Source: Cytophagaceae bacterium
GTDB lineage: Bacteria; Bacteroidota; Bacteroidia; Cytophagales; Spirosomataceae
Direction of reading: 5' to 3'
Assembly: GCA_005791165.1 (NCBI GenBank)
Contig: SXXW01000011.1
Location: 62,001 to 126,000, forward strand
Length of the DNA: 64,000 bases
Shown here one piece after another: positions 2,189 through 37,561 of this stretch. A program made the position numbers and the translations under genes. A model generated the notes under the pieces. That model made no database searches. It saw only the letters and a program-made list of their open reading frames with translations, and was not told the DNA's origin. Each line of letters opens with the position of its first letter. Position 1 is the first letter of the stretch.

Positions 2189-3733
2189 TTATTTCAACTC
2201 AATCACCATATCAATTTCTACCGCAACATTATTTGGCAATACATTCACGCCGATAGCCGAACGGGTGTGCCGGCCACGTTCCCCAAATATTTCGACCATC
2301 AGATTCGAGAAACCATTCATAACGCTAGGCTGTTGGGTAAAATTAGATTCTGAATTCACAAATCCATTGACTTTTACAATTCTTTTCACCCGATTTAAAT
2401 CACCAATGTTTGCCTTTAGGGTTGATAGTAAATTAATGCCCACGAGTCTAGCCGCTGCTTGACCCTGCTCGACACTTAGCTCTTTTCCTAATTTGCCTAC
2501 TACTTGGCCCCCCTCTGGCTTGTCTGGAATATGCCCAGATAAATACACCATATTTCCTGAAATCACACATTTTATGTAATTAGCCATGGGAGTGGTGGGC
2601 GCTTTCAATCCTATTTTTAACGTTTTTATTTGTGCTTCTGCATCTATTTCTTTTTCAATGAAATGCAGGCTGACAGGTGCCTGCACCATAATGTCTTGGT
2701 GCGTATTTGTTAATTCACCTGTTTGATCGTTAAAGACATAGACTTCCACTTTGTGATCATCTTGACTAGCCACATATACAAAATGACCTGTCGGGTCAAA
2801 ATTAAAGTTTCTAGGTTTGCGCGCGACCGTCAGATGTTTAACTTTCTTTAAAAGGCCATCGGCTTGCACGGCGAAAATAGTTAACTCATTCGAGCTTATC
2901 CGATTAGAACTAATCAACCACTTTTCATTCGGAGAAAGGTGAATATCAGCGCTTCCTTTATCAGGTGATTTTGCCGTATCTGCATCCAATGTTTGAATTA
3001 AATTTAATTGATTGTTGCTCACTTTAAATACGTCGACCTGCCCCTTCAACTCGGTAATCAAATAGGCGTTGCTGCCAGCTTTATTGAAAATTAAATGGCG
3101 AGGACCTTGGCCTGCCGGCACGGTTGTTGCCGTAAATTTTTCTTCCAGCGTTCCATCCGCAAAAATTTTATGTTGGTATATTTTATCCGTACCCAAATCA
3201 TTTACAAACAAGTAATTTTGATCGGGCGAAAGGATCGCCATGTGAGCATGTGGTTGTTTTTGGCGGCTAGGGTGAATGCTTGATCCTGTATATTGAATGA
3301 GCTGACTAATGGGTGAAATGCGTCCCTCAAATGTTTTAAAAACACTTAAACTTCCTCCGGAATAATTGGCCGCATACAAAGTTTTGCTCGCCTCCCGGTA
3401 TAAAACATAACATGGGCCTGGACTAACGGTTAAGCTTGAACTTAATTTTTCAAATTGGCCCTTTGCATTTTTTACATAGGAACTAATGGCCGACTTCCCT
3501 CCGGCTTCTTCTGTGATCGAAAATAAATATTGACCATCCGCGGAAATTTGTTGGAAGGATGCTGCGGGGGCTTGCAAATCGTAGGCTTTTCTTGATTTGC
3601 CACTTTGAAGGCTGATGTCAAATACTTCAATGCCTGGATTTCCAGTCTGTGTGTAGGAGCCTACTACGAGTTGGTGTGTCAAAGAATCTGCTGGTGCAAA
3701 ACTTAATAAGCTAAGGGCGATCGTTAAAAACAT
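2189..3733 (-). CDS. Lactonase-family beta-propeller (YbhE/Pgl-like) fused to a C-terminal RidA/YjgF domain
   Basis: N-terminal HQLVVGSYTQTGNPGIEVF..., HPSRQKQPHAHMAILSPDQNYLFVNDLGTDKI and GQGPRHLIFN lactonase motifs; C-terminal MVYLSGHIPD...AARLVGINLLSTLKANIGDLNRVKRIVKVNGFVNS...RSAIGVNVLPNNVAVEIDMVIEL RidA motif in a single ORF. Confidence 0.85.
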   Translation of the reverse strand: MFLTIALSLLSFAPADSLTHQLVVGSYTQTGNPGIEVFDISLQSGKSRKAYDLQAPAASFQQISADGQYLFSITEEAGGKSAISSYVKNAKGQFEKLSSSLTVSPGPCYVLYREASKTLYAANYSGGSLSVFKTFEGRISPISQLIQYTGSSIHPSRQKQPHAHMAILSPDQNYLFVNDLGTDKIYQHKIFADGTLEEKFTATTVPAGQGPRHLIFNKAGSNAYLITELKGQVDVFKVSNNQLNLIQTLDADTAKSPDKGSADIHLSPNEKWLISSNRISSNELTIFAVQADGLLKKVKHLTVARKPRNFNFDPTGHFVYVASQDDHKVEVYVFNDQTGELTNTHQDIMVQAPVSLHFIEKEIDAEAQIKTLKIGLKAPTTPMANYIKCVISGNMVYLSGHIPDKPEGGQVVGKLGKELSVEQGQAAARLVGINLLSTLKANIGDLNRVKRIVKVNGFVNSESNFTQQPSVMNGFSNLMVEIFGERGRHTRSAIGVNVLPNNVAVEIDMVIELK

Positions 3734-7876: not shown

Positions 7877-9224
7877 TTTTTAAAGGATAGGTGGCCGCTT
7901 CACGTTCTACTTGGGCTGCGGCGATTAATATTTTAAATTGATTTATATTCAATAATAAATGGGCATTGGTCCATTGACTTCTCGCATCTAACGTTTCTAT
8001 ATACGTATTTACCCCTTCTTTATACCCTTTGTCTATCAGCTTTTGATAGGTATTCGCTACGTCGATTTGCTTCTGACTTGCTCGGAAAGCAACCCATGTT
8101 TGTGTTAGGTTTTGTTGTGCGATTTGAAGGGCGAGATTGACTTTCTTGCTAGTTAGGTCAAGTGATTTTTTAGCCATGTCAACATCCATCGCCGACTGCT
8201 TTATTTTGTTTAAATTTCGTTTGCCTGAAAAGATGGGGATGTCTACTTGCATGCCCAATAAATAGTATGCCGATTTCTGATTAAAATCCCAATTGGACGA
8301 TTGCGAACCTAAGTTTAAATAGCCGTTTAATTTAGGTAAATAAAAACCTTCATTCATTTTTACGACCGACTGCTGTAACGAAATGGCTTGTTTCAGCATG
8401 CTCAATTCTTCTCTTTGATCTACCTCTCCGACTAGCGATTTTTTCAAAATATCTAACGCTTCCTGCTCATTGTAATTGGTTTTAATCTCCGATAATAATT
8501 CTCGATTTAAAAGAAAATTGAAATACATTTTGGCAGATTCTGCTTGTTTTTCTGCTTCGGATAATTGGTAACCCAACTGTGCAATTTCATTTTCCGATCT
8601 AAGAATATAGGCGGGTAAACCTTTGCCATTGGCCAATAATTTCTCATTTATTTTTTTGCCCTCTTGGGCCAAAAGCAATCCATTTTGGTAGATCCCAATC
8701 GCCTTATGGGACATCAAATAATTTAAATAAGCGACTTTAATGTTTTTGGCTAACTCTCTTTTATATATCTGAATATCCGCCTTTTGAATGCCCAATGTTT
8801 GACTCTGGATTTCTTTGTTGATCGAGATGTCCCGATTGTAAATGGGCATGACAGTGGTCAATTTAACATCATAGAAATTTCGAGGAAAGAAGTTCGTTTC
8901 TACATTACTAATTTGAGGAAATGCAGTGCTTTTTGTCAACTGGTTTAACGTGGCATATACCGGATTAAGCATATCGCCTACCGGAAATGAAATGCTTCGA
9001 CCGCCTTCACCTGTTTGATATCCGCCTTGAAAAGCAAGCGTCGGCTGATATAGACTTTGGGCAGATTGTAAAGATAAAAGGGCCTTTTCCGCCGATATAG
9101 ATTTTTGTTGGAGTACGATATTTTGCTGAAAACCCATTTCGATGTATTCATCCAAAATGGATTTTTGGCCCATGACCCATGCAAATGGAAATAGCAAAAA
9201 CAATAAGGGTAACAGTAACTTCAT
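7869..9224 (-). CDS. TolC-family outer membrane efflux protein
   Basis: Signal peptide; coiled-coil hairpin repeats; position in RND operon; 8-bp overlap with the adaptor gene. Confidence 0.9.
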   Translation of the reverse strand: MKLLLPLLFLLFPFAWVMGQKSILDEYIEMGFQQNIVLQQKSISAEKALLSLQSAQSLYQPTLAFQGGYQTGEGGRSISFPVGDMLNPVYATLNQLTKSTAFPQISNVETNFFPRNFYDVKLTTVMPIYNRDISINKEIQSQTLGIQKADIQIYKRELAKNIKVAYLNYLMSHKAIGIYQNGLLLAQEGKKINEKLLANGKGLPAYILRSENEIAQLGYQLSEAEKQAESAKMYFNFLLNRELLSEIKTNYNEQEALDILKKSLVGEVDQREELSMLKQAISLQQSVVKMNEGFYLPKLNGYLNLGSQSSNWDFNQKSAYYLLGMQVDIPIFSGKRNLNKIKQSAMDVDMAKKSLDLTSKKVNLALQIAQQNLTQTWVAFRASQKQIDVANTYQKLIDKGYKEGVNTYIETLDARSQWTNAHLLLNINQFKILIAAAQVEREAATYPLKND

Positions 9225-9228
9225 TTTC

Positions 9229-9849
9229 TTAGGCTTTTTTCAGTGTATTAATCATCCAACGAATCGACTCATGCATGGATTGTACCACCTTGTCGGGTTC
9301 TACTAATCGCTCTAGTCGTTGGCGTATCGCTAACGAAACCAGACCATGGGCAACCGCCCATACGGCCATGGATATTGTGGCCACGTCGCCTGATTGAATT
9401 AATTTCTTATCCATGCATTCTTGAATAATTAGTTTTAAAGTTTCTAGGGCGATATCTCCGTTGGGCCAATAACCCACATTTTGCTCCCTAACCGTTTTCA
9501 TGGGAGCATTTTGAATGAACATTAAATCATAATATTCTGGATTTTCTAGACCAAAATTGATGTAATTTTCACCCAATAAATAAAGTCGGTCAATCGGATT
9601 TTCAATTTGAATCAGCGCCAAATTAGACGCGATCATTCGCTCGAATCCCATCTCACAGAGATGAAATAAGATTTCGTTTTTATCCTTAAAATAAATGTAA
9701 AGGGTAGTCGGGCTATACTCAATGAGATCTGCAATTTTCCGAATGGATACGTTTTCAAAACCCTCCTTGACAAATAACTGCATGGAAGCTTCCAAAATCA
9801 TTTTCCTGATTTCTTCCCTTTGCTTCTCCTTTCTTTCTAAAATCCCCAT
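9229..9849 (-). CDS. TetR/AcrR family transcriptional regulator
   Basis: N-terminal HTH: REEIRKMILEASMQLFVKEGFENVSIRKIADLIEYSPTTLYIYFKDKNEILF. Confidence 0.95.
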   Translation of the reverse strand: MGILERKEKQREEIRKMILEASMQLFVKEGFENVSIRKIADLIEYSPTTLYIYFKDKNEILFHLCEMGFERMIASNLALIQIENPIDRLYLLGENYINFGLENPEYYDLMFIQNAPMKTVREQNVGYWPNGDIALETLKLIIQECMDKKLIQSGDVATISMAVWAVAHGLVSLAIRQRLERLVEPDKVVQSMHESIRWMINTLKKA

Positions 9850-9866
9850 CGCTTTTATTTACATTG

Positions 9867-9889
9867 CAAAAATAATGAACAGTGTTAAT
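9867..9889 (-). promoter_or_regulatory. Candidate -7 box (TATTTTTG on minus strand, 9867-9874) abutting an imperfect palindrome ATGAACAgTGTTaAT (9875-9889): putative tetR-RND promoter/operator
   Basis: Minus-strand TATTTTTG matches the Bacteroidota -7 consensus TAnnTTTG about 18 bp upstream of the TetR start; the adjacent palindrome has one mismatched pair. Confidence 0.45.
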
Positions 9890-10064
9890 AAATTGCGTAA
9901 AATTAAAAAAAATTATATTTTCTTTTCGGCTACAAATGGAGATATTTTGCGCCTTTTTGATGATTAGGTACAAGAAATGACAGAGTAAATTCCTTTTTTT
10001 TATAAAATGCAGCGTAGAAGAAATTTTGATTCAATTCCGCTAAAATAGTAGATATAATAAACAA

Positions 10065-10527: not shown

Positions 10528-12177
10528 ATGATTCGCTTATTATTCGTTTTTGTTTTTATTTTAACGTGGTCCACAAGCACTTTTGGGCAGTTTCAAGTAA
10601 GCGAAAATCGTCGATTTATCACACGCGATGGCAAGCCATTTTTCTGGCTTGGAGATACAGCCTGGGAACTTTTTCATCGACTTTCCAAAGAAGATGCCAC
10701 CTATTATTTCAAGAAAAGAAGCGAGCAGGGATTCACCGTTATTCAAGCGGTGGCCTTAGCGGAATTAGATGGATTGCAAACACCTAATGCTAATGGAGAT
10801 TTGCCGCTCATCGATTTAGACCCCACAAAACCCAATGAAAAATATTTTGCTCACGTAGATACTCTGATCACTATTGCGGGCAAATTTGGTCTGACCATTG
10901 CAATGCTCCCAACTTGGGGAGACAAAGTGGATAAGTCGACCTGGGGAAAAGGGCCAGAAATTTTTAACGCAAAAAACGCAAATACCTATGGAAAATGGAT
11001 CGGCCAGCGCTTTGAAAAAAAGACCAATTTGATTTGGACAATGGGAGGCGATCGCAATCCAAAAAATGCCCAACAAATAGAAATTTGGAATGCTTTAGCT
11101 GAAGGAGTTACGGCTGGTGCCGGTGGACCCAATAAGGTGCTCATGAGTTTTCATCCGCAGCCCAATGCCCTAGGTTCTGCCGAATGGTTTCATCAAAGCG
11201 AATGGTTAGATTTCAATATGTTTCAAAATGGGCATTGTCGAGATCAAGAGCACTATTTAAAAGTATCAACGTTATATAACAAGGCTCCCTTTAAGCCGAT
11301 CATCGACGGTGAACCGATGTACGAAGATCACCCCGTTTGTTTTAACGCAAAGGACTTGGGAACATCAAGTGCCTATGACATCAGAAAATATGCCTATTTG
11401 GACTTATTTGCGGGTGCCTTTGGACATACCTATGGTTGTCATGATGTGTGGCAAATGTTTGATTCCACGCGTGTCGGAATTAATGGCCCCCATTTTCCTT
11501 GGAAAATTGCCTTAGATTTACCTGGTGCAAACCAAATGAAATTTGCCCGAGAATTAATGGAATCTAAATCCATGCTCGACCGAATTCCAGATCAATCCAT
11601 TTTAATTGAGTCCGACGAAACCCCCGGGGAGCGTATCCAAGCGACTCGTGGAAAAGACTATGTTTTTGTTTATTCATGCGTAGGGAAAAGATTCCGCCTA
11701 AAAATGGGCCAAATTCCCGGTGAAAAATCAACTTACTTTTGGGTGAATCCTAGGACGGGCGAAAAGTCAACCAAAAATAACATCAACAATACTGGAATTC
11801 AGACTTTCACGCCACCTTCTAAAGGATATGGCTTGGACTGGGTGATGGTCTTAGAATCTTTACCAGATCCAAAACCTGAAGTTAAACCTGAGCCTGCTGC
11901 TGCAGAGGTAAAGCCGAGCCAAGAGGCTAAAACTCCTGCGACTCCATTAGCACCGGCCAATGCCCCTGAGGTAAAAGCAGAAACCAAACCGCAATCCGCT
12001 GCAACAACTCCTTTGCAAGCGAGTCCCGCGACTACGCCCACCATAGTCCCTGAAGTAAAACCTCAGGTTTCGCCAACGAGCACTTTACAAGCAAGTCCAG
12101 CGACAGCGCCTACGGCTCCCACAGCAAATACAGCAACAGAAAATAGTTCAGCGACCACCGCTCAGCCTAACAAATAA
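10528..12177 (+). CDS. DUF4038 / apiosidase-like glycoside hydrolase with C-terminal Pro/Ala/Thr-rich tail
   Basis: Signal peptide MIRLLFVFVFILTWSTSTFGQ; FQVSENRRFITRDGKPFFWLGDTAWELFHRLSKEDATYYFKKRSEQGFTVIQAVAL is the hallmark of the DUF4038 (GH140-like) N-terminus. Confidence 0.88.
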   Translation: MIRLLFVFVFILTWSTSTFGQFQVSENRRFITRDGKPFFWLGDTAWELFHRLSKEDATYYFKKRSEQGFTVIQAVALAELDGLQTPNANGDLPLIDLDPTKPNEKYFAHVDTLITIAGKFGLTIAMLPTWGDKVDKSTWGKGPEIFNAKNANTYGKWIGQRFEKKTNLIWTMGGDRNPKNAQQIEIWNALAEGVTAGAGGPNKVLMSFHPQPNALGSAEWFHQSEWLDFNMFQNGHCRDQEHYLKVSTLYNKAPFKPIIDGEPMYEDHPVCFNAKDLGTSSAYDIRKYAYLDLFAGAFGHTYGCHDVWQMFDSTRVGINGPHFPWKIALDLPGANQMKFARELMESKSMLDRIPDQSILIESDETPGERIQATRGKDYVFVYSCVGKRFRLKMGQIPGEKSTYFWVNPRTGEKSTKNNINNTGIQTFTPPSKGYGLDWVMVLESLPDPKPEVKPEPAAAEVKPSQEAKTPATPLAPANAPEVKAETKPQSAATTPLQASPATTPTIVPEVKPQVSPTSTLQASPATAPTAPTANTATENSSATTAQPNK

Positions 12178-29202: not shown

Positions 29203-29613
29203 ATGTCGATTAATTATCAGATTAACCCTACTATTTGTGTTCACGATTTGATTGATATTTTACATAAATCTACGTTGGGATTGAGAAGGCCGTTGGCAGA
29301 TTTAGAGGCGATGGAGAGCATGTTGGCGCATGCGAATTATTACATTGGTGCTTATGAAAATGGCCAATTGGTAGGACTGGCGCGTGCGATGACTGATTTT
29401 GTGTATACGACTTATTTAGCGGATTTGGCGGTAGATGAAAAATATCAACATCAGGGGATTGGAAAAGAATTAATTAAAATCTTGAAAATAAATATCCTGA
29501 GGGCTAAATTGATTTTATTAGCTGCGCCCGCAGCGGAGGCATATTATCCTAAAATTGGGATGCAAAATCATCCGCATTGCTATTTTATAGACCGAATCGA
29601 GGAGATTAATTGA
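29203..29613 (+). CDS. GNAT family N-acetyltransferase
   Basis: YLADLAVDEKYQHQGIGKELIKILK acetyl-CoA-binding motif A; LLAAPAAEAYYPKIGMQNH. Confidence 0.93.
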   Translation: MSINYQINPTICVHDLIDILHKSTLGLRRPLADLEAMESMLAHANYYIGAYENGQLVGLARAMTDFVYTTYLADLAVDEKYQHQGIGKELIKILKINILRAKLILLAAPAAEAYYPKIGMQNHPHCYFIDRIEEIN

Positions 29614-31354
29614 TAACAACGAGTCGTTTGGTGGAAATTCTTCCCTCTCGACTAATGTAGGAAATAAAATAATTGGCATTAGGCCAGTTGGTCACATCGA
29701 CCACCCTTTCACGTTCAACATCTATTGTATCCGTATAGAATACAAAGCCATTCATGTCATAAATTTTTATACTTCCTTGAATTAATCGAGGCCACCGAAG
29801 CGTAAATTGTTTGGTAGCAGGATTTGGTCCAATGGTGAAAACATCAGATTCTCCGTCCACCATTTGAATCGGAAATCCAGAAAACCCAAGAGCTCTCATG
29901 CCTAATTTATTTTTCAAATAAGGTCCTGGATACGGATACTCGGTAAGGCCTACGACAAAACTTGAATGAAAGCTAGGAATGTAACTAACAATATTGCCTT
30001 CATATTGTAAAGTAAAAGTGATGGCTATTTTTTTCCCGTTAATCACTTCGATCTTTTTGATATTTTTTGACATGGACTTCGTATTTATTTCGTCCCAAAA
30101 AAATTGATCAGCTAATGTTAATTTATGTGTCTTGTTTTTTAGGTCTACGACCATTGTGTCATTAGGAATTACAATATTTTGCCCTTCTTCAAAATCAATG
30201 AAAAGTTTATCTCGATCTTTTTCAGATAGAAAATAAGCTCTTTGGATTTTTGGACTATTAATTTCGGTGGGCCAATTCCGCTTGTAAATCTCTTTTGAGA
30301 TTATTCTAAATTGTTCATAAGCCGCTTGGCGATATCCATCATTACTGTAATGAAGTCGGTCAAAACCTTTAATTCCCACCGTTGCATAAACCTTTACATA
30401 AGGGTCATATGCTTGTTTTCTTTGATCCTCTCGAACATAAGCAGCTTCCGGATATGGGTATTCGTACACGTTGTTTTGTGAAACAAATAGAAATTGAGAG
30501 CTGGGAAAAAACTTTTTATATTTTTGTTTTAGGTTTTCAAATTTTACCCCCCATGTATATTTGGTACCTATGGAAGCCGCAGCTTCGGATTCTCCTTGTC
30601 GGTAAATAATGCCTTTCACATGGTTTAATGTCCCCGATTTTAAGGCCTTGTAATACATGATATTTCCCCCATCTGGAGATGAAATATTGCCATCTAGAAT
30701 GGAAAGCCAATCAATATTGGACCCTCCGGCAGCCGAATTTATAATGGAAATTGGGATTTTTTCGGACTCAAAAAGAAGTCTGCCCATCTCTGCAGCCCAA
30801 GGTCCAATCCTAGCTCCGCCCACGGGAAGTGACCATAAAGTATCTGCTAAATTATAAGGACCAAAATTTTCATTCCCCTGAACCGCTCCGAATGACCTTA
30901 GCCATTCGCCTTGATAAACTAAATTATCAATGGGCCCAATCCATGCATTCGATTGCCCAGTAACATAATATACATCCCCGGCCACTACATTTTTTCGCTT
31001 AACTACTAAGCTAGAATCTTTCCCTTTGAAGCCATATACTTCAAAATCATACTCTGCTAATTCTGCTGGGATTTGAAATTTAGTTGAAAATTTAGCCGAT
31101 GATCCGCTAAATGTTAAAGCCACTTTCTGGTATTTATTGTTGGCGCTATTTCGCAAAACTCGAACGGAAACGGCGGTAAATTCGGTAGATTTTGCTACAC
31201 CTTCCACCGTAATATCAGCCAAATTCGTAGACTCTCTAGGATATAATTGAAAATCTTGAGGTAATTTATTGAAAGTAAAAGAGCCAAAAGTCTGAGCCGA
31301 AGTTCTGCTAAATAAACATAAACTAAAAAATAAAAGTGAAATAATTTTTTGCAT
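29606..31354 (-). CDS. Sialate O-acetylesterase (SASA)-like secreted esterase with T9SS C-terminal sorting domain
   Basis: Signal peptide MQKIISLLFFSLCLFSRTSAQ; GDVYYVTGQSNAWIGPIDN (GQSN) catalytic block; C-terminal GPNPATKQFTLRWP...IKIYDMNGFVFYTDTID...YFISYISREGRISTKRLVVIN is T9SS type A-like. Confidence 0.82.
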   Translation of the reverse strand: MQKIISLLFFSLCLFSRTSAQTFGSFTFNKLPQDFQLYPRESTNLADITVEGVAKSTEFTAVSVRVLRNSANNKYQKVALTFSGSSAKFSTKFQIPAELAEYDFEVYGFKGKDSSLVVKRKNVVAGDVYYVTGQSNAWIGPIDNLVYQGEWLRSFGAVQGNENFGPYNLADTLWSLPVGGARIGPWAAEMGRLLFESEKIPISIINSAAGGSNIDWLSILDGNISSPDGGNIMYYKALKSGTLNHVKGIIYRQGESEAAASIGTKYTWGVKFENLKQKYKKFFPSSQFLFVSQNNVYEYPYPEAAYVREDQRKQAYDPYVKVYATVGIKGFDRLHYSNDGYRQAAYEQFRIISKEIYKRNWPTEINSPKIQRAYFLSEKDRDKLFIDFEEGQNIVIPNDTMVVDLKNKTHKLTLADQFFWDEINTKSMSKNIKKIEVINGKKIAITFTLQYEGNIVSYIPSFHSSFVVGLTEYPYPGPYLKNKLGMRALGFSGFPIQMVDGESDVFTIGPNPATKQFTLRWPRLIQGSIKIYDMNGFVFYTDTIDVERERVVDVTNWPNANYFISYISREGRISTKRLVVIN

Positions 31355-31469
31355 CTCAGGTAATAAGGCTTTGCTTTTAAGAGCCCACAATTTACAACAA
31401 ATCGCCAAATTATTTTGAAATAATACCCCTAAAAATAATTTTAGCAAATCTCATTTCAGTAAAATCCAT

Positions 31470-31495: not shown

Positions 31496-33196
31496 ATGAA
31501 CGTCGTTGTTTTTACAGGGGGTAATGGAAATGCTAATCTAATTAAGCACTTAAAAGATTTATCCTATGTGAATTTAAGCCTTTTAATCAACGGATATGAC
31601 GACGGTCTTTCCACGGGAGTTATTCGAAGTGCCAATCAAGGTATGCTTGGGCCCTCAGATTACCGTAAGAATTTCACCTATATTTTAGATGATTTCACCG
31701 ATTATAACCGAAATCTTAAAAAGCTTTTTGAACATCGATTAAGTGAGGAAGAAACGAGAGTTCTTTTGCATAATCCGGAAGAATTGATCAAAAATCTGAT
31801 TCAAGAAAAGTACACTTTAGATCGTCGCTCCGAAAATTTTATCACCCGATACTTTGAATCAGGTTCTCAAAAGCTTTTAAAATTCACCCATAATTTTTCT
31901 ATTCTGAATGGTTTTAGTGTAGGAAATATCATAATAGGTGGTATTTATGCGGAAACAAATGATTTCAATCTTGCGCTATATCTATTGACCACCCAATTTG
32001 AATTAACAGCAAAAATTATCAATATATCTACGGCCGATGATTCTAAATTAGTGGCCTTTGATGGGGACGGTAATTTTTTAGCTAATGAAGCGGATATTGT
32101 CAACTATGATGGAAATAAGCCCCTTTCAGATTTTTATTTATTGCCTTTAGATGAGCTTAATGCGCTCGATAAGCAAGGTAAATATGAAAAGGAAGAAATA
32201 GCTAGAATTTCAAAAATACCTTCCTTATCCAAAGAAGCAATAAAGGCCTTGAAAGAGGCTGATTTGATCATTTTTGGATCGGGAACACAGTTTTCTTCCC
32301 TGCTTCCCTCGTATCGAATTTGCAAAAACGCAATCCTAAAATCGAAGGCCCAAAAAGTATTAGTTGTCAATAATAATTATGACAGCGACATCAGAAATAT
32401 ACAATTTGACGAGTTTACACTAAAAATTCTAAATGAATTAGACCAATCGAATTGTGATTTTTTTGACTCCATCATTGTAGATACAAATTCAGTAATTAAG
32501 CCTAAACAATCGCTTCCCAACTTGACCACAGCTAATGTAGCAGATCCTTCAGGGAAACACGATGGGCAAAAGTTATGGACTTGGATCAATCGATCACTGG
32601 ATATTAAGTTGGGTGAAGTTCCTGTACTCATCTCTTTTGCTAAGAATACCGAAGAATTTATTAAAGATTATTACCACAATGAAATGGAAAGCCTTAATAG
32701 CGATCCCACAAGGATTATTAAATTCTATCAAGCAGGAGAAAAAGAGTCGACGTCCTACACGCTGCATTTAGATGCTTCCGGGAAAGTGTCACTTTATGAA
32801 ATAGATGCTTGGATTCGAATCATGCAACTAAACCAATTGGATGCTGTGATCGGGTCTAGGTTTGAGTCGAGGCGCCAACTAATCAACTCGTTTAAACACT
32901 CGATTGTCGAGTCTAATTTAATCTATTTATTTGCCCTGATTACCTCATATTGGGTTAGTATTGTATATTTTATTCGATTTTGGAGAATTATGCCTGATCC
33001 ACTCAGCGGGATTTATTTGATCAAATCCAAACATGATATCCCCTATAAAAACCTATCCTATTTCTTGAAAAAAATAAATAGAAAAAAGAATTTCGAATTT
33101 GTTTCCCTACCCATCAGTTACCGCACATTTAAAAAAGTTAAAATCTTAACCAAAATAAAAAATGTAATCGTCAACTTGCTTGGGCTCTATGTATAA
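31496..33196 (+). CDS. CofD/YvcK-like (2-phospho-L-lactate transferase family) domain with a C-terminal GT2-like domain
   Basis: N-terminal VVVFTGGNGNANLIKHL, LINGYDDGLSTGVIRSANQGMLGPSDYRKNFTYIL, ADLIIFGSGTQFSSLLPSYRICKNAILKSKAQKVLVVNNNYDSD match CofD/YvcK motifs; C-terminal HLDASGKVSLYEIDAWIRIMQLNQLDAVIGSRFESRR...PDPLSGIYLIKSK...EFVSLPISYRTFKKVKI resembles polyprenyl-phosphate GT2. Confidence 0.78.
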   Translation: MNVVVFTGGNGNANLIKHLKDLSYVNLSLLINGYDDGLSTGVIRSANQGMLGPSDYRKNFTYILDDFTDYNRNLKKLFEHRLSEEETRVLLHNPEELIKNLIQEKYTLDRRSENFITRYFESGSQKLLKFTHNFSILNGFSVGNIIIGGIYAETNDFNLALYLLTTQFELTAKIINISTADDSKLVAFDGDGNFLANEADIVNYDGNKPLSDFYLLPLDELNALDKQGKYEKEEIARISKIPSLSKEAIKALKEADLIIFGSGTQFSSLLPSYRICKNAILKSKAQKVLVVNNNYDSDIRNIQFDEFTLKILNELDQSNCDFFDSIIVDTNSVIKPKQSLPNLTTANVADPSGKHDGQKLWTWINRSLDIKLGEVPVLISFAKNTEEFIKDYYHNEMESLNSDPTRIIKFYQAGEKESTSYTLHLDASGKVSLYEIDAWIRIMQLNQLDAVIGSRFESRRQLINSFKHSIVESNLIYLFALITSYWVSIVYFIRFWRIMPDPLSGIYLIKSKHDIPYKNLSYFLKKINRKKNFEFVSLPISYRTFKKVKILTKIKNVIVNLLGLYV

Positions 33197-33800
33197 TCTA
33201 CTTTTTGATTTTGATGGAACTCTTTTTGACACTGATTCCGCTCACGAATTAGCTTTTCAAAAGACTTTTTCGAATTTTGAGTTAGGAGAATGTCCTCCTT
33301 ATGAATCATTGAAGGGAATTAAAACCAAAGACGTGTTTGCCAATTATTCCGATGATGAGGAAATGGTGAAAAAACTGGCTTCATATAAATCGCAAACCTA
33401 TCAGGCCGACCTAAATGCCATAAAAGCCTTGGTTGATTTTGACCTAATCCGGCATTTAAAAAGTATAGGAAATCGAGTATTTATTGTGACGGGAGGAAGT
33501 CGGCTCTCCATCGACCTATTGCTTAATGTGCATCAAATTGCTGGGTTTTTTGACGGGATTATTGCCGCCGACGATTATAAAAAATCCAAGCCAGATCCAG
33601 AACCTTTTTTAACGTGTATTTCAAAATTCAATATTTCAGGTACAATGCATGGAATCGAAGACTCAATACAAGGAATTGAAAGTTTAAAAAATGCAGGTAT
33701 ATTCGTTGTTGGAGTTCATAACCCCCTAATTGCCAAAAAATCAGATTTGTATTTTCCTGAAATAAATGAATATTTAAAATATTTAATTGCCCAAGGATGA
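33189..33800 (+). CDS. HAD-superfamily hydrolase (phosphoglycolate phosphatase-like)
   Basis: LLFDFDGTLFDTDSAHELAFQ motif I; FIVTGGSRLSI motif II; DYKKSKPDPEPFLTCISKF motif III; GIEDSIQGIESLKNAGIFVVGV motif IV. Overlaps end of upstream gene. Confidence 0.92.
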   Translation: MYNLLFDFDGTLFDTDSAHELAFQKTFSNFELGECPPYESLKGIKTKDVFANYSDDEEMVKKLASYKSQTYQADLNAIKALVDFDLIRHLKSIGNRVFIVTGGSRLSIDLLLNVHQIAGFFDGIIAADDYKKSKPDPEPFLTCISKFNISGTMHGIEDSIQGIESLKNAGIFVVGVHNPLIAKKSDLYFPEINEYLKYLIAQG

Positions 33801-34564
33801 AAAAAGTCATCGTAATTCCAGCCGCCGGTAAAGGAAGTCGCCTCCATAGCGATTTGCCCAAAATATTTACAGCCGTTTATCAGACTAAATCTATTTTTGA
33901 CCTGATTGTGGAGCAAGGTACTTCGCATGTCGACGAAATGATTTTACTCTTAAGTCCGGCTGGCAAGGAATATTTTGACCTTCATATCGCCTCTTCCGCA
34001 CCCAAAAATGTACATGTATGGGTGCAAGAATCTGCCACCGGAATGTTTGATGCCATGAACCAATTATTTGAATCGCTCTTACATCGCCAGGAAAATTTTC
34101 AAGTAATTTTGCAATGGGGAGACCAACCGTTTTGTGATGCTGAATTGCATCAAACCCTGTTTTTAGACCTGAATAAATTCGAAGTGTCTGTCCCACTTGT
34201 TTGGGTTTCTTCGCCCTATGTTCAGTTTAAATTAGGCTCCCCATTAGCCGTTTGGGAAAGTAGAGAAGGCGAAAAATGTGACGATTTTGGATTTAAAGAT
34301 ATGGGGATTTTTGCCTTTACCCGTGGGTCGATTGAAGTTGCATGGCCATTGTATAAAATCAATGCGCCCATTGGGAAAGTTACGGGCGAACGAAATTTTG
34401 TTAAATTTTTTGAAACCATTCAGCAGAAAACCGAGATTTTTTGGCGCCTAGATCAGCCGTATTATAAGTCCATTGGTATCAATACCCCAGAAGAACTTAA
34501 GGAAGCTAATTTATTTTTAAGCCAAAAAGAGCAAATCCAACAAGGTTCTAGCGATAAATCGTAA
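33797..34564 (+). CDS. Nucleotidyltransferase (NTP-transferase fold, IspD/GlmU-like)
   Basis: VIVIPAAGKGSRLHSDLPKIFTAV is the classic nucleotidyltransferase N-terminus; VILQWGDQPFCDAELHQ; ATGA overlap with HAD gene. Confidence 0.85.
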   Translation: MKKVIVIPAAGKGSRLHSDLPKIFTAVYQTKSIFDLIVEQGTSHVDEMILLLSPAGKEYFDLHIASSAPKNVHVWVQESATGMFDAMNQLFESLLHRQENFQVILQWGDQPFCDAELHQTLFLDLNKFEVSVPLVWVSSPYVQFKLGSPLAVWESREGEKCDDFGFKDMGIFAFTRGSIEVAWPLYKINAPIGKVTGERNFVKFFETIQQKTEIFWRLDQPYYKSIGINTPEELKEANLFLSQKEQIQQGSSDKS

Positions 34565-34586: not shown

Positions 34587-35471
34587 ATGCATTATTTAGT
34601 TACCGGCGGCGCCGGATTTATTGGGACTCACTTGTCTAATTACTTGATTTCTTTAGGACATCAAGTGAGTATTTTAGATGACATGTCTTTTGGTGATCCC
34701 ACTAAAATTCATCCAAAAGCCAATTTGATCATTGGTAAAATTGAAGATAGCAGCCTTTGCCTAGAAGCGACTAAAGGTGTCGATGGTGTTTTTCACATGG
34801 CGGCCTTTTCTAGAAGTGGGCCATCTTTTGATATGCCCGAACAATGTCATGAAAGCAATGCTTTAGGGACTTTAAATATACTTCAAGCGTGTAAAAAAAA
34901 TGGAGTTAAGCGTATCGTATATTCGGGATCGTCAACCTTTTACGGCAATAAAATAGGGGTCCAAAAAGAAGGAGATCCAGGAGATTTCTTGAATTTTTAT
35001 GGACTTACTAAGCATGTGGGCGAATTGTATGTGCAGCAGTTTTATCGAAATTTCGGACTTGAATGTAATATTTTGAGATACTTTAATGTGTATGGATCGG
35101 GCCAACCAGCCACCGGGGCGTATGCATTAGTGCTCGGGATTTTTATAGATCGATTTAAAAGAGGAGAGAGACTTGAAATACATGGTTCCGGCGAGCAAAG
35201 ACGTGATTTTATTCATGTCTTAGATATCGTCAAAGCGAATGTTGCCGCTATGAATTCCGAGACTGTGGGTGAAATTTTTAACATCGGTTCGGGTGTCAAT
35301 TACTCCATAAAAGAATTAGCTAATTTCTTCCCTATTGAAAATTTCCATACCGAAAGGAGATCTGGAGATGCTGAAGTAACATTAGCCGATATATCAAAAG
35401 CGCAAAAATACTTAGATTGGAATCCTGAAATATCGCTTGAACAAGGAATAAGCCAACTCATCGAAGAATGA
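34587..35471 (+). CDS. NAD-dependent epimerase/dehydratase (extended SDR, nucleotide-sugar epimerase-like)
   Basis: YLVTGGAGFIGTHLSNYLISLGHQVSILDDMSFG; YSGSSTFYG; YGLTKHVGELYVQQF (YxxxK); RRDFIHVLDIVKANVAAM. Confidence 0.93.
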   Translation: MHYLVTGGAGFIGTHLSNYLISLGHQVSILDDMSFGDPTKIHPKANLIIGKIEDSSLCLEATKGVDGVFHMAAFSRSGPSFDMPEQCHESNALGTLNILQACKKNGVKRIVYSGSSTFYGNKIGVQKEGDPGDFLNFYGLTKHVGELYVQQFYRNFGLECNILRYFNVYGSGQPATGAYALVLGIFIDRFKRGERLEIHGSGEQRRDFIHVLDIVKANVAAMNSETVGEIFNIGSGVNYSIKELANFFPIENFHTERRSGDAEVTLADISKAQKYLDWNPEISLEQGISQLIEE

Positions 35472-36193
35472 AATCCATCAGCATCGTCACCGCAGCCTTT
35501 AACGAATGCCCCGGAATAATCCAGTTGGCAAACGAATGGCTTTCGTTTTTCGATCAGCATCCAGATATATCCGAAGGAGAAGTGATTATTTGTGATGACC
35601 ATAGCGATTTACACCAATACGAATCGTTAAAAGATTCCTTTATTGGCAACCAACGGGTGACCATTTTACGAAATGAGCAAAATGAAGGGCCAGGATTTGC
35701 ATTTCAAAAAGCCATTTCTAAGGCCAAATACGACTGGACTTTAATCACCGATTCGGATGGCCAATTTCCCATCAATAACGTGAATCAAATGCTTTTAGCA
35801 TTAGGCAACCAAGATGCGGATATCGTTTTTACGCACCGGAATCGAAAATATGACAATGAGTTTAATCGTTTTGGCCAAAAGGTTTCTAACCAACTTTGTA
35901 ACTCAATCTTTAATTCCCAACTTCAAGATTTTTCTTGTGCATTTAAATTAGTCAAAACCCCGTTGCTTCAATCGCTAAAATTAGATGCGAGGTACATGAA
36001 CTATTCATTAGACCATACGGGGAAATTATTAAACTCCTCAGCTCAATGGATAGAAACTCATGTGACTTGCCGAGTTGCTGAGGCCAGAAAAAGAAATATA
36101 TCTAGCGAACTAAAACGAGCTAAAAATAGATTTTTATACATAGCCTATTTATTCTTCACGCAATACCTACGAAAAAATAGAGTCATTTTTTAA
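35468..36193 (+). CDS. Glycosyltransferase family 2 (dolichyl/polyprenyl-phosphate transferase-like)
   Basis: ISIVTAAFNECPGIIQLANEWLSF; VIICDDHSD; DWTLITDSDGQFPINNVNQMLLAL; ATGA overlap with epimerase gene. Confidence 0.9.
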   Translation: MKSISIVTAAFNECPGIIQLANEWLSFFDQHPDISEGEVIICDDHSDLHQYESLKDSFIGNQRVTILRNEQNEGPGFAFQKAISKAKYDWTLITDSDGQFPINNVNQMLLALGNQDADIVFTHRNRKYDNEFNRFGQKVSNQLCNSIFNSQLQDFSCAFKLVKTPLLQSLKLDARYMNYSLDHTGKLLNSSAQWIETHVTCRVAEARKRNISSELKRAKNRFLYIAYLFFTQYLRKNRVIF

Positions 36194-36211: not shown

Positions 36212-37561
36212 ATGTTCTCAAAAATCCCTTTATTTCTTAGCTTATTGGTGTGGGGATTTATGGCATTCCTATTAATTTCCCTATCTTTTTATAATCAACC
36301 CAGTATCACCGACGACTTTTGCTTCGGCTGGATGGGCAGGGAATATGGAATATTTCTGGGCGCCTACCATTATTATGCGGGTTGGAGCGGGCGTTATTTC
36401 GCAGATCTTCTACTTCATTTTAACCCCTTAGTTTTTAGTACTTCCTTTGAGCATTTTAAATGGGGAACGATCGCCTTAATTGTAATTGGTTTTGCTAACG
36501 GCTATTATTTTTTAAAAAATGTATTCCAAATTCAGCATAATAATCCTAACCTCTGGATTCTTTCACTTGTCAGCCAAGCCGTTTGTTGGTATACAATACC
36601 AGGCCTTTTTCAATTATTTTATTGGTTCTCAGGTCATTATTACTACTTGTCTTTTCATTTAGTTCTATTATTTGTCAACATATATTTCTATTGTTCTAAG
36701 CCCATATTAAGAGTCACTTTACTCTCTTGTATCATTTTTTGCTTGATTGGGTCAAGCGAAATTTCCATGATCATGTTCTCTGGAATTTTTTGGCCATGGC
36801 AATTGTATAAGGCTTGGAAACAGAAAAAAATCAAATTAGAGACCATTTTATTTTTTATCATTTGGGGAATTTCCATAGGCCTAGTTTTGCTTTCCCCAGG
36901 AAATAAAGTTCGCGCCCCTAAACATATTGATTACATCAAAGGGCTCACAGAGTCGATGTTGAATTTTGGTATGTTGCTCAAAATTTATGTTAAATCACCG
37001 CTGATTTGGGTTTTCAACTTGCTTTTGTTTTTTACTATTGATAAGCCAAAAAAACAATATATTCTGTCATATAAGGAAATTTTAGGTCTTTTACTCTTGT
37101 TCCTCTCGAGCTATTTTTTAGCTTTTGTTCCTATGGCATTAGCGCTAGGCGAAGACTTTATTCCTGATCGAATTCAAAGTTTAATCTTGATGTATTTGAT
37201 TTTTGGGTTTGGATATCTTATTGTTTGGGTTAAATATAAGGTAGGCCACTTGAATTCTTCAAGCCTGGCTATTTCTCAAATTTCATTGCTAGTTGTATTT
37301 ATAACGCTCCTATTATTTAATCAAAATTCAAAACAATTTTATGATGAATGGCGTTTCGACAAAGCTAAAAAATACGCCAATGAAAATGCACAAAGGTTTG
37401 ACCTGATACTTAAATCAAAGAGTCAACAAGTTGCAATTCCCCCCATCGAAAATAAAAACACCATGTTTTTTATGGAAGAATTATCCACTGATCCTAAGCA
37501 TCTTTGGTGTAAATGTATTGCTAACTATTATGGCAAAACAGAAGTACAATTACTTAAATAA
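36212..37561 (+). CDS. Polytopic membrane protein, GT-C/DUF6056-like
   Basis: About ten hydrophobic segments; N-terminal loop QPSITDDFCFGWMGREYGIFLGAYHYYAGWSGRYFADLLLHF. Confidence 0.6.
   Translation: MFSKIPLFLSLLVWGFMAFLLISLSFYNQPSITDDFCFGWMGREYGIFLGAYHYYAGWSGRYFADLLLHFNPLVFSTSFEHFKWGTIALIVIGFANGYYFLKNVFQIQHNNPNLWILSLVSQAVCWYTIPGLFQLFYWFSGHYYYLSFHLVLLFVNIYFYCSKPILRVTLLSCIIFCLIGSSEISMIMFSGIFWPWQLYKAWKQKKIKLETILFFIIWGISIGLVLLSPGNKVRAPKHIDYIKGLTESMLNFGMLLKIYVKSPLIWVFNLLLFFTIDKPKKQYILSYKEILGLLLLFLSSYFLAFVPMALALGEDFIPDRIQSLILMYLIFGFGYLIVWVKYKVGHLNSSSLAISQISLLVVFITLLLFNQNSKQFYDEWRFDKAKKYANENAQRFDLILKSKSQQVAIPPIENKNTMFFMEELSTDPKHLWCKCIANYYGKTEVQLLK

Follow-up and report, generated by a model that had tools for sequence, protein, structure and literature searches.

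A CofD domain joined to the C-terminal half of a lipid-linked sugar transferase in a freshwater bacterium, and its relatives in apparent DNA-glycosylation gene sets of giant phages

The locus and its five-gene cassette

We analysed a 64,000-nucleotide stretch of DNA from a freshwater bacterium (the window), in which one protein combines a CofD domain with the second half of a lipid-linked sugar transferase. The fusion gene is one unbroken frame on the + strand, with its ATG at 31496 and its stop at 33196, giving 566 aa. It is the first gene of a cassette, followed in order by genes for a HAD protein, a GlmU-like nucleotidyltransferase, a GalE-like epimerase and a polyprenyl-phosphate-type GT2 (Table 1). 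The cassette GT2 gave weak matches to the NCBIfam PgfS, AglJ and ArnC models and aligned with a DPM-like family at 99% (hhalign).

Table 1. Coordinates of the fusion gene, its domains and motifs, and the other cassette genes (positions in the window)
Feature	Position	Strand	Basis
CofD-pseudoGT (presumed) fusion protein, 566 aa	31496..33196	+	ORF and translation; full-length orthologues, 91-98% and 51-61% identity
CofD-fold domain, residues 1 to about 368	31496..32599	+	Pfam PF01933, AlphaFold, Foldseek
GYDDGLSTGVIR motif, residues 33-44; D35 = GlmR D40, D36 = D41	31592..31627	+	Alignment; GlmR catalytic Asp from PMC10128056
GPSDYRKN motif, residues 52-59, nearly invariant in subfamily; RKN in place of YvcK RNV/RN	31649..31672	+	Alignment
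GSGTQFSSLLPSY motif, residues 261-273; S272 at GlmR N198 position	32276..32314	+	Alignment
GT2-like domain, probably degenerate, residues about 372-566 (~195 aa), donor-binding half absent	32609..33193	+	No Pfam match; hhalign to polyprenyl-P GT2 family
LDASG, residues 425-429, DxD remnant, second Asp replaced by Ser	32768..32782	+	D426, S428, G429 and K430 invariant, six orthologues
GSRFESRRQL, residues 453-462; R455 aligns with GtrB R122	32852..32881	+	Alignment; GtrB roles from PMC4728340
Strongly hydrophobic stretch, residues 475-493, likely membrane/interface helix	32918..32974	+	Kyte-Doolittle maximum 1.6-2.0 there, 6/6 orthologues
DPLSGIYL, residues 501-508, resembles DPVSGFFA of dolichyl-P-mannose synthase 5mlz by motif only	32996..33019	+	Invariant; motif comparison
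HAD protein, beta-phosphoglucomutase-like, 8-bp overlap with fusion gene	33189..33800	+	Pfam HAD_2 E 1.8e-27; best PDB relatives beta-phosphoglucomutases
GlmU/IspD-like nucleotidyltransferase, 4-bp overlap with HAD gene	33797..34564	+	Family profile best PDB match GlmU, E 6e-21
GalE-like NAD-dependent 4-epimerase	34587..35471	+	galE E 1.3e-45; UDP-glucose 4-epimerase 4zrm E 1.7e-47
Polyprenyl-phosphate-type GT2, DxD region DSDGQ, 4-bp overlap with epimerase gene	35468..36193	+	Pfam PF00535 E 2.1e-18

The fusion gene is present in 12 of the 37 genomes of the genus, the window's own included. Full-length orthologues within the genus are 91-98% and 60-61% identical, and one further orthologue (51% identity) lies in a more distant Bacteroidota genome; outside the closest orthologues the fusion is conserved at 51-61% identity. 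M1 is kept in every orthologue. An assembly artefact as the source of the fusion is ruled out, since the same fusion occurs in several genomes of three divergent lineages. No viral example of the fusion came up when viruses were scanned with the alignment of the whole fusion protein.

All five cassette genes are syntenic in those relatives within the genus that have enough sequence. In a distant genome (L021) all five are present in rearranged order at 47-65% identity. Three congeners lack exactly these five genes, and in them the upstream esterase and downstream DUF6056 genes are adjacent. This empty site delimits the five-gene unit better than any annotation.

Within this one genus the block is cleanly present or absent between an esterase-like gene (29606-31447) and the DUF6056 gene (36212-37561). 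DUF6056 was considered as part of the unit and rejected, because it remains in genomes without the five genes. Two other congeners have a reorganised region in which an amidohydrolase pair lies beside different genes and DUF6056 is not there. Elsewhere in the window, a putative oxidoreductase fragment lies at its start (89-907), and a beta-propeller-like gene (2189-3733) has a relative a few kb upstream of the cassette in another record (L026).

The first-pass annotation knew of no characterised enzyme with this architecture, and a search of the open-access literature (subscription papers lay outside it) likewise found no description of a CofD-GT2 fusion. We regard the fusion protein as real and undescribed, and the combination of its parts and the CofD subfamily as new to us. 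The superfamily, mutase, nucleotidyltransferase, epimerase and GT2 each belong to known kinds.

The CofD domain and its phage relatives

Pfam CofD (PF01933) matches residues 3-333 with E 3.8e-26 and 92.4 bits, against a gathering cut-off of 30. The full-length AlphaFold model, for which 18 sequences were used, has high confidence over residues 1-370 (pLDDT blocks mostly 80-95) and fails for residues 373-558. In a Foldseek search the modelled CofD part resembled the YvcK structure 2hzb (TM 0.79, E 2.9e-15) more closely than FbiA/CofD (TM 0.48-0.59), and the model thus predicts a CofD superfamily fold in residues 1-370. The CofD/YvcK-type N-terminal domain claimed by the first-pass annotation stands on both counts, and the motifs it quoted, DDGLSTGVIR among them, are present.

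The domain lies some way from the known families. Its best NCBIfam models, CofD_related/YvcK and GAK CofD, both score far under their cut-offs, with TIGR01826 (GlmR/YvcK) at 89.9 bits against 196. Its sequence matches in the PDB are YvcK structures only, with none to CofD structures, and no F420 gene was recognised in the cassette that would place it in CofD/FbiA proper. In a tree in which one YvcK row forms a long branch, the fusion, phage and one cyanobacterial plasmid CofD sequences are split from YvcK by a branch with support 100/99. Only one of 398 sampled Bacteroidota genomes has PF01933 above the cut-off, and that one is the window's own; ordinary YvcK identity was rejected, since Bacteroidota are generally without this family.

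Purified GlmR converts UTP and GlcNAc-1-P to UDP-GlcNAc, and the D40A/D41A/N198A changes lower its activity about 100-fold (PMC10128056). The catalytic Asp residues of GlmR are reported to be needed in B. subtilis, and the activity is held to be important in vivo (PMC13046274). In the CofD/FbiA reaction the beta-phosphate of an NDP compound is attacked, NMP leaves and a phospho-moiety is transferred, with two Asp and one divalent metal ion taking part (PMC7253369). The first-pass annotation had suggested transfer of a phosphoryl-linked moiety to a glycan or lipid; the closest relatives of known function point to two alternative reactions, uridyltransfer as in GlmR and transfer of a phospho-moiety as in CofD/FbiA.

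The GlmR catalytic residues are kept in part. D35 is invariant in all 19 aligned sequences, and D36 is kept in the bacterial fusion proteins and is Asn in most phages. The full GlmR catalytic set is not present, N198 being replaced by Ser in the fusion protein (S272) and by Thr in the phages.

B. subtilis GlmR binds UDP-sugars, with Tyr265 and Arg301 as binding residues (PMC5482804), and switches partners (PMC7525490, PMC5482804). The CofD domain might likewise be a non-catalytic NDP-sugar sensor or scaffold that regulates or gathers the cassette enzymes, as proposed for UDP-GlcNAc-bound GlmR with YvcJ and GlmS; its fusion to different partners (a pseudo-GT here, a PMM-like HAD in the phages described below) is what would be expected of a docking module. 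We consider this unlikely, because D35 and the glycine loops around it rank among the least variable positions in ten phage and three bacterial lineages, and because the known regulatory site for UDP-sugars lacks conservation, Tyr265 not being conserved and Arg301 appearing to correspond to Lys354 in a region where the mapping is weak.

A tblastn search of phages picked up a contig of 462 kb that encodes a relative of the CofD domain at 32% identity; there it is part of a CofD-HAD fusion, with a nucleotidyltransferase nearby. A profile scan of viral contigs with a CofD-only alignment gave 12 loci, whose CofD-HAD proteins form ten distinct lineages with a median pairwise identity of 33%, two pairs being identical. 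At all of these loci CofD is fused to a HAD domain whose profile matches phosphomannomutases (PMM, E 5e-14), and none of the phage CofD proteins carries a GT2-like tail. The phage nucleotidyltransferase gene adjoins CofD-HAD, or in LR756500.1 lies a few genes away. When its profile was run over the window's genome, the cassette nucleotidyltransferase ranked first, with 74 bits against 42 for the next. The occurrence of CofD, HAD and nucleotidyltransferase together in both the bacterial cassette and the phages points to a recurrent sugar-activation set.

The CofD partner is thus a HAD phosphomutase-like protein of one or the other of two cap classes, beta-phosphoglucomutase-like in the bacteria and PMM-like in the phages, and in the phages CofD and HAD share one polypeptide. 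Both features would suit a CofD domain that precedes the mutase and, by phosphotransfer, makes or primes a sugar phosphate (e.g. a sugar 1,6-bisphosphate for HAD-type mutases). However, we know of no CofD homologue that carries out such a priming phosphotransfer, and the HAD proteins may be phosphatases instead; we judge this order of events quite unlikely.

A T4-type DNA beta-glucosyltransferase-like gene is present in 10 of the 12 phage records, mostly next to or a few genes from CofD-HAD, so the CofD-HAD set probably feeds a sugar transferase in phages. Nine of the records also hold a thymidylate synthase/dCMP hydroxymethylase-family gene, and with both kinds of gene present the phage sets look like base glycosylation sets. 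From their gene content, the giant-phage sets with CofD relatives appear to put sugars on DNA. Their gene content predicts a phage-made activated sugar for DNA glycosylation, which is possibly a better lead than the bacterial fusion. A search for papers on CofD in a phage glycosylation set found none in the open-access literature, subscription papers again lying outside it.

Several neighbourhoods deserve mention in their own right. In the IMG/VR contigs (L029-L040) and LR756500.1 (L024), with CofD-HAD at about 8001-9900, the genes comprise the hydroxymethylase-family, glucosyltransferase-like, CofD-HAD and nucleotidyltransferase genes. In IMGVR_UViG_3300032007_000006 (352 kb, L036) CofD-HAD and the nucleotidyltransferase are in reversed order, and no T4-type glucosyltransferase or thymidylate synthase-family gene was found in the record; the sugar acceptor of this phage may differ from that of the others. 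The Acaryochloris marina plasmid pREC4 carries a stand-alone CofD (9983-11080 of L025) in the same clade as the fusion. It adjoins a gene annotated as a nucleotide-binding protein (11101-12174), with kinase-like, PP2C and vWA genes near and no HAD or nucleotidyltransferase seen nearby.

The GT2-like tail

The tail gave no match in Pfam (Glycos_transf_2 included), NCBIfam or PHROGs, and a PDB profile search with the tail family returned chance matches only, so the GT2 reading is invisible to ordinary annotation. A model of the tail alone was poor (pLDDT 46, pTM 0.37), and a fold search with that unreliable model gave no PDB match. We compared the six-sequence tail family with a 22-sequence dolichyl/polyprenyl-phosphate GT2 family gathered from the order. 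The hhalign match had a probability of 82% (E 1e-5), or 88% (E 4e-6) with both sides trimmed. Its score of 42.0 compares with a mean of 14.0 (sd 2.25) and a maximum of 23 over 300 column shuffles; reversed profiles gave 0.2%, and CofD and nucleotidyltransferase profiles less than 2%. The cassette's own GT2 was rejected as the origin of the tail (hhalign 2%).

The match spans the DxD strand to 'PISYR' (residues about 417-545), and nothing in the tail corresponds to the N-terminal half of a GT2 (YNE, VDDGS, N-G loop). The DxD is D426-A-S428 in the tail, and neither D426 nor S428 varies among the six aligned orthologues. The GT2-derived C-terminal part reported by the first-pass annotation is therefore recovered by profile-profile comparison for the second half only, and its further observations, LDASG in place of DxD and a shortened segment before it, are borne out. 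On sequence grounds the tail appears homologous to the second half of the GT2 core, and is probably a decayed GT2 without GT activity.

The first-pass annotation had left the choice between a pseudo-GT and a divergent enzyme. GSRF, SRRQL, DPLSGIYL and YRTFK are strongly conserved among the tail orthologues, as they would be in a divergent but active glycosyltransferase that made the protein truly bifunctional. Such activity is nevertheless highly improbable: the whole donor-binding half is gone, the second DxD Asp is lost where GtrB holds its metal by D94 and D96 (PMC4728340), and the cassette has a separate GT2. We favour the pseudo-GT.

What remains of the tail is the part that would face the acceptor. 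R455 occupies the place of R122 in GtrB, a residue that binds the acceptor phosphate (PMC4728340), and the tail has an invariant Asp in its DPLSG motif, like DPM synthase, and a conserved hydrophobic stretch. With the donor half gone, and given the CofD/FbiA chemistry in which NMP leaves an NDP compound (PMC7253369), the two halves could form a composite phosphoglycosyl transferase in which the CofD half binds the NDP-sugar made by the cassette and the GT2 half presents polyprenyl phosphate; sugar-1-phosphate would be moved by CofD-type chemistry, yielding polyprenyl-PP-sugar and NMP. This is unlikely. The phage relatives do without such a tail for their CofD function, R543 sits two residues off the position of GtrB R200, the CofD-domain fold is nearer GlmR than CofD, and the cassette GT2 is already available for loading polyprenyl phosphate. 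Distinctly improbable is the wider proposal that CofD phosphotransfer joined to the acceptor half of a DPM-type GT2 makes a phosphoglycosyl transferase on a fold not known for that reaction, with the phage subfamily making an activated sugar or transferring a phospho-sugar for DNA glycosylation.

A proposed sugar-activation role and comparison with known systems

The operon content supports the role in sugar or glycan metabolism that had been suggested for the fusion. Our preferred reading, to which we give a probability of about 0.45, is that the CofD domain works at the sugar-1-phosphate/NDP-sugar step, where it would either form or spend NDP-sugar. This placement follows from the GlmR and CofD/FbiA reactions and from the retention of D35 throughout and of D36 in the fusions. 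We infer the reaction, the order of steps and the role of the tail as follows. The cassette would make an unusual nucleotide sugar and hand it to a lipid-linked glycan route. The HAD protein would make a sugar-1-phosphate in a beta-phosphoglucomutase-like step, the GlmU-like nucleotidyltransferase would then make the NDP-sugar, the GalE-like enzyme would epimerise it, and the cassette GT2 would load the sugar on polyprenyl phosphate. The CofD domain would act as a metal-dependent transferase of the GlmR/CofD type, forming the NDP-sugar or moving its phospho-sugar. The tail, keeping the acceptor/membrane side of a GT2, may dock the CofD domain to the membrane, to the polyprenyl acceptor or to the cassette GT2.

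Against this explanation stand the Ser/Thr at the N198 position, the Asn at the D36 position in most phages, the lack of conservation of Tyr265 and a tail fold that could not be modelled. The intact GlmU-like nucleotidyltransferase in the cassette also counts against it, because a second NDP-sugar-forming enzyme would be redundant.

The bacterial and phage settings share one logic of sugar phosphate, HAD phosphomutase-like step, nucleotidyl transfer and sugar transfer, with CofD as the constant fourth element. With the five-gene unit and the phage relatives in hand, the emphasis shifts from an odd fusion to a recurrent CofD, HAD and nucleotidyltransferase sugar set. The role of the CofD fold outside F420 synthesis is still argued, between regulator and accessory uridyltransferase. 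The present subfamily retains the first catalytic Asp, occurs together with a HAD phosphomutase-like protein and a GlmU-like nucleotidyltransferase, and is fused to one or another sugar enzyme. It is independent genomic evidence for the CofD fold in sugar activation, and the cassette and phage sets are small systems in which that role can be tested. From the phage sets we would expect certain huge phages to produce an activated sugar of their own for modifying DNA; if true, this would bear on how phages resist restriction and CRISPR nucleases.

GlmR/YvcK (2hzb, 2o2z, 2ppv, 2q7x) shares with the fusion the CofD fold (TM 0.79 to 2hzb), D40/D41 as D35/D36 and a UDP-sugar context. The fusion differs in its separate clade (100/99), in RKN rather than RN(V), in Ser for N198 and in the lack of conservation of B. 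subtilis Y265; its gene is not beside yvcJ/whiA and is fused to a GT2 remnant. The NCBIfam GAK-system CofD-like protein (TIGR04357) is likewise CofD-related, but the fusion scores 53 bits against its cut-off of 340. CofD/FbiA with CofC/FbiD, of coenzyme F420 synthesis, also sets a CofD-fold protein beside a MobA-type nucleotidyltransferase. However, the fold likeness is distant (TM 0.48-0.59) with no sequence match to CofD structures, no F420 genes were seen in the cassette, and the fusion's partner is GlmU-like. The tail corresponds to the second half of polyprenyl-phosphate GT2 enzymes (DPM synthase, 5mlz; GtrB, 5eke), beginning at the DxD strand and ending at the C-terminal PI-Y motif, but is without the first half, which holds the donor site, and has D-A-S for DxD. 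The pentose-activation genes of RB69 and Thanatos are described as encoding an NTP-transferase plus phosphotransferase protein, with a SIS isomerase in RB69 and no CofD domain reported (PMC6024577, PMC12838424); as phage-encoded sugar activation for base glycosylation, they are comparable to the phage CofD-HAD and nucleotidyltransferase sets.
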